Positions 32,005-34,592 of a stretch of 34,870 nt of DNA are shown in pieces. The notes under the pieces were generated by a model. It saw nothing but the letters and a program-made list of their open reading frames with translations, was not told the origin of the DNA and did no database searches. The translations under genes were made by a program, and so were the position numbers. The DNA is taken from the NCBI GenBank assembly GCA_944380455.1, contig CALWHR010000060.1, positions 1 through 34,870 on the forward strand, given 5' to 3'. Within the stretch, counting starts at the first letter, position 1. Every line of letters begins with the position of its first letter. The DNA is from an uncultured Clostridia bacterium (GTDB lineage Bacteria; Bacillota; Clostridia; Lachnospirales; Anaerotignaceae).

Positions 32005-32345
32005 TTCTTCCCTCTCCCTAATTTGTAATATATTTTATACTTTAATTAAAAAATAAATGAGTGTTTATACTTGCTTATTTCATATGTATAAATCCCCATA
32101 AAAAAGCTTGTTTATTTTTAAATCTATCAAATAAGACTGTTTAAGCCTGTAATTGATAATACAGCTTATATTAAAATAGTATGTTTCAATTAAAAAAATC
32201 ACTTTAATTATTGTTCAAAATATTAAAATTGTCAATATTTTATTTAAAATCTATTGATATTCTGAAAAATTCGTATATACTAAAAATATAATCATTGGAT
32301 AAAATAATGTTCTTTAAATAAACTATTTTGTTAGGAGGTAAAATT
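32005..32345. other. AT-rich divergent intergenic region (341 bp)
   Basis: It holds the + strand promoter of the YheO-like regulator (32254-32281) and, 12 bp upstream of it, an inverted repeat AAAATATT (32217-32224) / AATATTTT (32234-32241) that could be an operator. The promoter of the 58-aa gene should lie near 32020-32060, where only weak -10-like TATAAA is seen. No other gene is visible. Confidence 0.6.
32254..32281 (+). promoter_or_regulatory. Promoter of the YheO-like regulator
   Basis: TTGATA (32254-32259), a 16-bp spacer, TATACT (32276-32281); the mRNA leader would be about 58 bases. Confidence 0.55.
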
Positions 32346-33017
32346 ATGAAGCAAAAACCGGTTTCATTATCAAAGGCTGACTATGCTATTCTTAATTCGT
32401 ACAAGATACTTGCTGAAGGCCTTGCTGAATATTTAGGCGAAGGCTGTGAAATAGTAATACATAGCTTAGGAAACCTTGAACATTCAGTTATTAAAATAAT
32501 AAACGGACAGCATACCGGAAGAAAAGAAGGCTCTCCTATTACAGACCTTGGACTGTCAATGGTTAAAAGTCTTAGTGAAAATGAATCCCAAAAACATATG
32601 TCATATTTTAACAAAACAATGGACGGAATACCTCTTAAAAGCTGCTCCATAGCCATTATAGGTGAAAAAGGTTATATAATCGGCCTGCTTTGCATTAACT
32701 ATTATCTTAATACTCCTTTAGCTGATGTACTGGCAAAATTCAGTATTAATAATTCCGACTCGCATAATACAGCTTTTGCTGAAAGTTTTGTAGATGATGT
32801 TGATGAATTACTTAAAATCTCACTTAAAGAAGCTTCTGATATAGTATATAACGACCGAAATATTACAACATCAAATAAAAACAAAGAAATAATTGCCATA
32901 CTTAACGACAAAGGCATATTTAACTTTAAAGACTCCGTAGTTAAAATAGCCGATATGATGGGAATATCCAAAAATACAGTTTATATGCACATTCGAAACA
33001 TTTCCAAAAAAAGCTGA
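32346..33017 (+). CDS. YheO/DauR-type transcriptional regulator (PAS_6 + HTH)
   Basis: 223 residues. Residues ~10-125 match the YheO-like PAS domain: EYLGEGCEIVIHSLGNLEHSV, a GSPITDLGLSMVKSL helix, then IIGEKGYIIGLLCINYYL. Residues ~165-220 form an HTH_22-type helix-turn-helix (FNFKDSVVKIADMMGISKNTVYMHIRNI). Relatives such as DauR repress amino-acid catabolic genes and sense small ligands. The start ATG at 32346 has AGGAGG at ideal spacing; an in-frame ATG at 32328 precedes the ribosome binding site and is rejected. It is convergent with ridA, a frequent genomic partner of this family, suggesting control of amino-acid or enamine metabolism. Confidence 0.88.
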   Translation: MKQKPVSLSKADYAILNSYKILAEGLAEYLGEGCEIVIHSLGNLEHSVIKIINGQHTGRKEGSPITDLGLSMVKSLSENESQKHMSYFNKTMDGIPLKSCSIAIIGEKGYIIGLLCINYYLNTPLADVLAKFSINNSDSHNTAFAESFVDDVDELLKISLKEASDIVYNDRNITTSNKNKEIIAILNDKGIFNFKDSVVKIADMMGISKNTVYMHIRNISKKS

Positions 33018-33101
33018 TTCATATTTCAGTAAGTAAGTTTATGGTATATTTATAAAAACATAAACTTTAATAAGGAAAGAGAGTAAAAACATAATCCAAA
33101 C

Positions 33102-33141
33102 CACCGGCTTAGTAAATGTATAAACTAATTCGGTGTTTTTG
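33102..33141 (+). terminator. Terminator downstream of the YheO-like gene
   Basis: CACCGGCTTAG (33102-33112) pairs, with two mismatches, with CTAATTCGGTG (33125-33135), then TTTTTG. A second hairpin AAGTTTATG/CATAAACTT at 33035-33067 lacks a T tract. Confidence 0.6.
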
Positions 33142-33156
33142 TTTAAGTGCATAACA

Positions 33157-33184
33157 AAAAGCCATGCATAACCGCATGGCTTTT
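33157..33184. terminator. Terminator of ridA (bidirectional)
   Basis: AAAAGCCATGC (33157-33167) pairs with GCATGGCTTTT (33174-33184); T runs on both strands. Confidence 0.88.
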
Positions 33185-33208
33185 ATTTTTTACTTTTAAA
33201 ATTTAAAA

Positions 33209-33589
33209 TTATTTCTTCATTGCTGCAATAACTTCAACTTCGCAAAGAAGTTTTTTAGGTAAATCTTTAACAGCTACACATGAACGAGCTGGTTTGCTTA
33301 CGAAATATTTTCCATAAATCTCGTTGAATGTACCAAAATCATTGATATCTGCAAGGAAGCAAGTTGTTTTAACAACATCTTCAAATCCAAGGCCGTTTGC
33401 CTCAAGAATGCCTTTGATGTTCTGGCAAACTCTTTCTGTCTGCTCTTCAATTGTAGTACCAGCAATCTCGCCTGTACCTGGCATAAGAGCAACCTGACCT
33501 GAAGCAAAAAGAAGACCGTTAACTTCTACAGCCTGTGAATATGGACCAATAGCTGCAGGAGCATTTTCTGTTGATGTAAATTTTAACAT
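33209..33589 (-). CDS. ridA: RidA family enamine/imine deaminase
   Basis: Hydrolyses reactive enamine/imine intermediates (such as 2-aminoacrylate) released by PLP enzymes, protecting the cell. 126 residues, forming a trimer. The substrate-binding arginine is R102 in SKPARSCVAV, with IGPYSQAV at 14-21, FASGQVALMPGTGEI at 28-42, and the CEVEVIAA strand near the end. The ATG at 33587-33589 has GAGAGG eight bases upstream; a GTG three codons earlier overlaps the ribosome binding site and is rejected. Own promoter and terminator. The cysteine synthase elsewhere in this window is a plausible, though unlinked, source of aminoacrylate. Confidence 0.96.
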   Translation of the reverse strand: MLKFTSTENAPAAIGPYSQAVEVNGLLFASGQVALMPGTGEIAGTTIEEQTERVCQNIKGILEANGLGFEDVVKTTCFLADINDFGTFNEIYGKYFVSKPARSCVAVKDLPKKLLCEVEVIAAMKK

Positions 33590-33635
33590 TTTTCGCACCT
33601 CTCTAAGTATATAAATTTTAATATCACATGAAATT

Positions 33636-33664
33636 ATTTTATATCCAAAAACTGCCTAAGTCAA
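33636..33664 (-). promoter_or_regulatory. ridA promoter
   Basis: On the minus strand, TTGACT (33659-33664), a 17-bp spacer, TAAAAT (33636-33641). Confidence 0.7.
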
Positions 33665-33817
33665 TATAACCTTTCTTAAACTTCCACCAAAAATAAAAGA
33701 GTTTTTTCGTAAATTTTTTTATTTTTTACAAATTGCTTTGTTTATAAATGTCAAATAAAGTGATTTTAATTTCATCTTCTTATCTGCAGTTAGGTAAATT
33801 TGTGTTTAGAAATATAA

Positions 33818-33840
33818 ACTGAAATTTTTAAACTTTCAGT
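33818..33840 (-). terminator. Short hairpin after the XRE gene
   Basis: ACTGAAA (33818-33824) pairs with TTTCAGT (33834-33840); the minus strand continues TTATATTT. Weak terminator. Confidence 0.45.
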
Positions 33841-33859
33841 CAAAACCGTAATATTTGTA

Positions 33860-34060
33860 TTACTTTTCATCTATTAAACCCAATATATAATCCGTACTCG
33901 TATTATAAAACTTAGCCAAGGCAATTAAAACAGACGTCGGTATATCTCGCTGCCCTAATTCATAGTTGCTGTATACCTGCTGAGAGCAATGCAAATAACT
34001 GGCCAGTTGCTTTTGCGTAAGGTCGCTGTCTTCTCTTAAATCCCTTATCCTCTTATACAT
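33860..34060 (-). CDS. Small XRE/Cro-CI-type transcriptional repressor
   Basis: 66 residues, essentially one HTH_3 domain: MYKRIRDLREDSDLTQKQLA, then CSQQVYSNYELGQRDIP as recognition helix region, and LIALAKFYNTSTDYILGL at the end. The ATG at 34058-34060 has GGTGA upstream. A longer frame to 34117 would translate through the operator and promoter and is rejected. It is divergent from the 34192 stalk-domain gene. Two palindromic sites between them (34083-34128) are the obvious targets, implying autoregulation and control of the divergent gene. Confidence 0.92.
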   Translation of the reverse strand: MYKRIRDLREDSDLTQKQLASYLHCSQQVYSNYELGQRDIPTSVLIALAKFYNTSTDYILGLIDEK

Positions 34061-34082
34061 AAAATCACCATGAAAAGTATAT

Positions 34083-34103
34083 AATACCGCATTATGCGGT
34101 ATT
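34083..34103. promoter_or_regulatory. Operator O1: perfect 10-bp palindrome
   Basis: AATACCGCAT-T-ATGCGGTATT, perfect inverted repeat around one base. It ends at the -35 box of the + strand promoter and lies 23 bp upstream of the XRE start. Confidence 0.8.
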
Positions 34104-34130
34104 GACTTTAACCGCATTTTGCAGTAAAAT
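34102..34130 (+). promoter_or_regulatory. Promoter of the stalk-domain gene, containing operator O2
   Basis: TTGACT (34102-34107), a 17-bp spacer, TAAAAT (34125-34130). The spacer is almost entirely a second, imperfect operator (34108-34128) sharing ACCGCATT-n-TGC-n-GTA with O1. O1 and O2 centres are 25 bp apart. Confidence 0.75.
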
Positions 34131-34191
34131 ATTTTTATTAATTTATGCTTATCAGCTAAAATTATGCAAATGGTAAATAAGAGGTGTTAAA

Positions 34192-34467
34192 ATGTGCATA
34201 TTAAAAACCATATATTTAGCAGTCATAAGCTTAATTGCAGGAGCAGCATTAATATATTTTACTCCTGCAAACTACATAAAACCTTGCGGTATAAGCTCAA
34301 AAAACGTAAAAATAAATATCTCAAATAGAGAAATTAATTTTGAAAATGGTGCTATAAATAGTTACGGCAAAACTTATATAAGAGAAGATATTTTAAATAT
34401 TATTGATTTAGATTACGAAGTTAAGGATTGTAATAAATACATATATATTAGAAAACTTCATAAATAA
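34192..34467 (+). CDS. Membrane-anchored single stalk-domain protein (copper amine oxidase N-terminal domain-like)
   Basis: 91 residues. A hydrophobic helix at residues ~5-25 (signal anchor or signal peptide without a lipobox) is followed by one short domain. VKINISNREINFENGAI, SYGKTYIREDILNIIDLDYEV and KYIYIRKL reproduce the pattern of the copper amine oxidase N-terminal-like stalk domain (PF07833), which is common in clostridial surface proteins and has no link to copper there. Usual proteins carry two or more repeats plus a catalytic domain; this one has a single repeat. Ribosome binding site AAGAGGTG. Its promoter is covered by the XRE operators. Confidence 0.78.
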   Translation: MCILKTIYLAVISLIAGAALIYFTPANYIKPCGISSKNVKINISNREINFENGAINSYGKTYIREDILNIIDLDYEVKDCNKYIYIRKLHK

Positions 34468-34510
34468 AATCACCTGTCATATTCGTGATTTTAAATTTAG
34501 AAATTGCATA

Positions 34511-34541
34511 AAAAAAACGCGGATAACTCCGCGCTTTTTTT
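34511..34541. terminator. Terminator after the stalk-domain gene
   Basis: AAAAACGCGGA / TCCGCG-c-TTTTTTT (stem 34518-34523 with 34528-34533). T runs on both sides make it bidirectional. Confidence 0.85.
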
Positions 34542-34551
34542 GCACATAATA

Positions 34552-34589
34552 TAAAATCAAAAAACCCCTTCAGCAATTGCTGAAGGGGT
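34552..34589 (-). terminator. Terminator of the tRNA cluster
   Basis: A perfect 13-bp palindrome from ACCCCTTCAGCAA to its complement (34564-34589), followed on the minus strand by TTTTTTGATTTT, four bases after the tRNA-Phe gene. Confidence 0.92.
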
Positions 34590-34592
34590 AAG

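Follow-up and report, generated by a model that had tools for sequence, protein, structure and literature searches.

Divergent transcription of a small XRE repressor and the gene under its control, with operators overlapping the promoters, is the layout of RstR in filamentous phages (NF041951) and of CI-like lysogeny switches. The same layout was found in the window, i.e. the whole 34,870-nucleotide stretch of DNA analyzed here (contig CALWHR010000060.1 of assembly GCA_944380455.1, from an uncultured Clostridia bacterium of the Anaerotignaceae), where a small XRE gene and a gene for a membrane protein diverge from two overlapping predicted promoters. The first-pass annotation of this DNA had described the locus as a compact switch in which an XRE repressor, acting through duplicated operators, controls the divergent membrane protein. 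Conservation in related genomes and covariation between operators and recognition helices argue strongly for such control as predicted.

The XRE gene occupies 33863 to 34060 on the minus strand (ATG at 34060; stop codon at 33860 to 33862). An alternative 85-amino acid open reading frame from 34117 begins within the operators, and the alignment of relatives starts at MYKRIR; with the start at the ATG at 34060, the product has 66 amino acids. In a profile search this protein exceeded the Pfam cutoff for XRE family membership (HTH_3, PF01381, Cro/C1-type helix-turn-helix; E = 3.9e-15, 56.1 bits against a cutoff of 23). No sensor domain was found in its 66 residues, so that any signal for switching can only be guessed at. 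Scanning of GTDB contigs recovered 80 loci with XRE relatives (73 to 91% identity), and by sequence comparison the protein is a member of a large, tightly conserved clostridial family. Seven residues (C25, S26, Q27, Y30, Y33, E34 and G36) were invariant across the 80 relatives, with C25-S26-Q27 sitting at the recognition helix. Carriage by phages or plasmids was considered and rejected (few close relatives; MT838774, labelled as a phage, has bacterial-looking genes).

The intergenic region holds two palindromic sites, neither assigned to a strand. Operator 2 (34083 to 34103, AATACCGCATTATGCGGTATT) is a perfect palindrome with arms of 10 bases each and a central T, and operator 1 (34108 to 34128, TTAACCGCATTTTGCAGTAAA) is its near-copy. 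The 15-bp cores common to both (ACCGCATTATGCGGT at 34086 to 34100 and ACCGCATTTTGCAGT at 34111 to 34125) have centers 25 bp apart, and the operator consensus reads ACYGCA-N3-TGCRGT. On the plus strand, the promoter of the divergent gene comprises a −35 element at 34102 to 34107 (TTGACT) and a −10 element at 34125 to 34130 (TAAAAT), both conserved in register among relatives (as TTGAC[AT] and TAAAAT/TATAAT), with operator 1 in the 17-bp spacer. On the minus strand, a probable −35 element of the XRE gene (TCAATA, 34100 to 34105; found in 43 of 58 aligned loci) overlaps the divergent −35 and lies 18 bp before a −10 element (TATACT, 34076 to 34081; 45 of 58 nonredundant loci have TATAAT/TATACT at this position with respect to operator 2), so that operator 2 falls between the two elements of a likely XRE promoter. 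Judged from the sequence, each of the two promoters is a carrier of one predicted operator in its spacer. The earlier description of duplicated operators, a perfect palindrome and a near-copy with centers 25 bp apart, was borne out by both sequence and conservation, and its placing of the second copy within the −35/−10 spacer of the divergent promoter was verified (TTGACT-17-TAAAAT, 34102 to 34130). Its further statement that both copies cover that promoter holds for the second copy but not for the perfect palindrome, which falls within the likely promoter of the XRE gene.

Of the 80 related loci, 64 had two sites spaced exactly 25 bp apart, whereas 50 rounds of shuffling produced none, and nearly all 80 loci shared the same upstream block. 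Most loci lacking the 25-bp pair retained one site; operator 1 was the more constant across relatives and was kept in most loci without operator 2. The register of promoters and operators was read from an alignment of 58 nonredundant blocks, whose consensus on the XRE strand was ATTtTACTGCAATTTGCgGTAAAaGTCAATACagCAAatTGCgGTa..aTATAaT and in which the order was fixed: divergent −10, operator 1, divergent −35 overlapping the XRE −35, operator 2, XRE −10. A strict pattern for the pair matched in only 2 of 391 genomes of the class, indicating either that the unit is sparse or that the pattern was too strict. The gene pair had been expected to recur in related genomes. This proved true of the XRE-operator unit, which was very widely kept and recurred in dozens of gut Clostridia, but the 91-amino acid partner was confined to the genus; outside it, the gene divergent to the XRE was a different one, usually of envelope type.

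Variation in the recognition helix was accompanied by variation in the operator. Proteins with the V29A change were paired with TGTTGT half-sites (10 of the 14 that were scored versus 38 of 246; P = 1e-5, with relatedness ignored), those with a QR[IV]YSNYE[RK]G helix with AGCG(A/C)A operators (L065, L119 and L120), and those with a QV[AC]YSRYELG[ML] helix with AAACCA (L111 and a second module of the same genome, L009/L195). In seven paralogues whose operators differ (L009, L111, L119, L120, L127, L128 and L180), 15-bp palindromes lay exactly 25 bp apart, an arrangement seen in 0 of 300 shuffles for each, while in six others tested, two inoviruses among them, the 25-bp pair was not above chance. 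Because a changed recognition helix comes with a correspondingly changed operator, in many cases still as a 25-bp pair, the XRE protein very probably binds the predicted sites. In the second module of this genome (L195, 3866 to 5359, contig C175; operator AAACCATTTTGGTTT, also as a 25-bp pair), the XRE gene is divergent to a gene for a 363-amino acid protein with a single transmembrane helix, and here too tRNA genes lie nearby.

Within the genus (six species examined), the pair occurred once per genome in four of six, with the locus fixed between ridA and a tRNA cluster in the order PAS_6 regulator, ridA, variable genes (e.g., MATE pumps), XRE, transmembrane protein and tRNA-Phe/Gln/Gln. In the stretch from ridA to these tRNA genes (33017 to 34592 in the window; L191 to L193), the XRE pair was fixed but gene turnover around it was high from one species to another, involving MATE pumps, a 692-amino acid secreted protein and a deformylase-like gene. 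A YheO-like PAS_6/HTH_22 regulator adjoining ridA (32328 to 33017) was conserved in five of the genus's species. XRE identity within the genus was 86 to 91%, versus only 31 to 48% for the transmembrane protein. The latter is encoded on the plus strand at 34192 to 34464, with a terminator-like hairpin 3′ of the gene on the same strand (34518 to 34533). Its 91 residues comprise one N-terminal transmembrane helix (about residues 3 to 23) followed by beta strands and a short helix (34 to 88; AlphaFold mean pLDDT of 71), and the modelled region 34 to 88 is probably a small extracytoplasmic beta domain. No Pfam, NCBIfam, PADLOC or PDB assignment was obtained for the protein, and a fold search of the PDB with this model returned generic protein G/L folds as best matches (Z of about 5). 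The product had been annotated as having one transmembrane helix and a single stalk domain; the helix stands, but the stalk domain found no support in Pfam, in hhalign with L087 or in a home-made profile. At E values up to 1, neither the window protein nor any of its three genus homologues matched the Pfam profile Cu_amine_oxidN1 (PF07833), and with a profile built from the stalk domains of its own genome and L087, the window protein and its genus homologues scored below many shuffled copies. Elsewhere in the same genome, 16 stalk-domain matches were found. The suggestion of an immunity-type element found no support: PADLOC had no match for the partner, neither recombinase nor phage genes were seen in the surroundings of the locus, and synteny within the genus was fixed. 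PADLOC likewise matched no known defense family among six other divergent products tested.

Divergent proteins were called by script in 62 loci and grouped by BLAST into 39 clusters, being unrelated from locus to locus. With envelope type defined as a transmembrane helix or signal-like segment in a crude hydropathy test, 46 of the 62 divergent genes (74%) were of this type, versus 38% of other genes at the same loci (P = 6e-7), and the bias persisted when counted by cluster (27 of 39; P = 4e-4); by the same crude test, 26% of the script-called genes were not envelope type. The families included zinc-ribbon proteins with a transmembrane segment, TM2, VanZ, BspA-type leucine-rich repeat (LRR) proteins, lipoproteins, a stalk-domain protein in another lineage (L087; E = 2.6e-9) and a few helix-turn-helix proteins. 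At six loci (L042, L043, L052, L054, L055 and L086), the divergent operon encoded a VanZ-like membrane protein and, after it, a small secreted DUF5067-like protein. Mapping target class on the XRE tree gave 44 changes for 34 classes with few forks supported; as the tree of a 66-residue protein is poorly resolved, it is uncertain how many target swaps were independent.

In the window's own genome, exact operators were confined to the XRE locus, where the pair occurred once, and one-mismatch sites were scattered; the predicted control is therefore local, and a wide regulon was rejected. Most exact sites were at the XRE locus in ten other carrier genomes as well. Extra operator copies were found nearby at eight loci, and at L101 and L107 the extra copy was upstream, at the target's own promoter. 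In Ruminococcus bromii and relatives (L039, L040, L046, L069, L074 and L075), a third promoter of the TTGAC..TAAAAT type with an operator in its spacer was observed directly past the XRE stop codon, antisense through the XRE gene (L046 near 3261; L074 near 3290). If repressed by the XRE protein, this promoter would give a double-negative loop.

The layout, the conservation, the operator/helix covariation, the single site pair per genome and the envelope bias of targets are observed, and their best explanation is, in our judgment, highly likely to be a local switch that regulates itself in the manner of a phage repressor and has interchangeable envelope genes as cargo. Binding, repression, autoregulation and induction are predicted from sequence and would proceed as follows. 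The small XRE protein, presumably as a dimer, would bind the two 15-bp palindromic operators 25 bp apart; a dimer on operator 1, in the −35/−10 spacer of the divergent promoter, would block the envelope gene, and one on operator 2, in the spacer of the XRE promoter, would let the repressor limit its own synthesis. Since the protein is without a sensor domain, relief would probably come through a fall in active repressor, through proteolysis, dilution or a partner, or perhaps through a change affecting the invariant Cys25; loss by proteolysis or to a partner seems the most likely route, and Cys25, beside the recognition helix, is speculatively a thiol-sensitive point. Relief would result in on/off expression of the small membrane protein. 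More tentatively, a portable cassette of repressor and two-operator divergent promoters may have spread in gut Clostridia and become linked with about thirty unrelated genes, most of them for the envelope, with the R. bromii group gaining a third, repressor-controlled antisense promoter to form a double-negative bistable switch for cell-surface diversity.

Other readings of the locus were weighed against this switch. XRE autorepression is common and the neighboring genes are variable, as would be expected if the XRE protein were a plain self-limiting autorepressor and the divergent gene a bystander with a chance promoter overlap and no role in switching. We consider this unlikely, since operator 1 and the divergent −10 and −35 elements are conserved in register, operator 1 persists in most loci that lack operator 2, L101 and L107 have extra operators at the promoter of the target itself, and the targets are biased toward envelope genes. 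The locus could alternatively derive from the immunity region of a temperate phage (e.g., an inovirus), as a remnant or in domesticated form; the XRE protein would then be a prophage-type repressor retained for superinfection immunity and the membrane protein an exclusion factor. Its best-named family is indeed the RstR inovirus repressor, though below the cutoff, inoviruses of the rodent gut have a divergent XRE repressor 47 to 56% identical (L176 and L177, bajarodino viruses), the XRE locus lies beside a tRNA cluster, and the divergent gene of L113 is recombinase-like. However, no integrase and no gene for phage structure or replication was seen next to the locus, which is fixed between ridA and tRNA genes in four species; IMG/VR matches amounted to four loci only, the inovirus region had no 25-bp operator pair above chance, and PADLOC had no match in the partner. 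Such an origin is accordingly improbable.

A toxin-antitoxin system, with a toxic small transmembrane protein and the XRE protein as transcriptional antitoxin, is very unlikely. The partner is small, membrane-bound and fast-evolving, and XRE autoregulators are common as antitoxins, with weak matches to antitoxin families here; yet the gene order is divergent rather than that of one operon, and the partner differs at other loci, reaching hundreds of residues (LRR, VanZ, TM2, lipoproteins), a misfit with one kind of toxin.

No description of an XRE/two-operator cassette with unrelated envelope cargo was found in the open-access papers searched. If true, the switch with interchangeable cargo would give a name to a regulatory unit of envelope genes that is widespread in gut Clostridia, which are poorly tractable, with a predictive operator from which targets can be read directly from genomes. 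Its natural repressor/operator pairs, which have several different specificities but share one fixed layout, would be useful for studies of XRE recognition and as orthogonal genetic parts, and bistable surface expression could be tested directly in R. bromii relatives by way of their third, antisense operator. Compared with described systems, the parts of the switch are of known kinds. The XRE protein would work like a lysogeny repressor, an analogy that need not mean identity. Against RstR (NF041951) it reached 39 bits of a cutoff of 80, and RstR is a phage gene, whereas the XRE gene of the window is chromosomal, with no phage genes seen, is predicted to control envelope genes and has ridA, a PAS_6 regulator and tRNAs as neighbors in conserved synteny rather than a filamentous phage genome. 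Stalk-domain proteins (PF07833) count the divergent product of L087 among their members, while the 91-amino acid protein of the window has no detectable relation to them. The 66-residue XRE regulator of ICEBs1 (PDB 7t8i; E = 6.7e-10) is single-domain and of equal length, but it is part of an integrative element, has the recognition helix IGNNNLSNYE and acts in another context.
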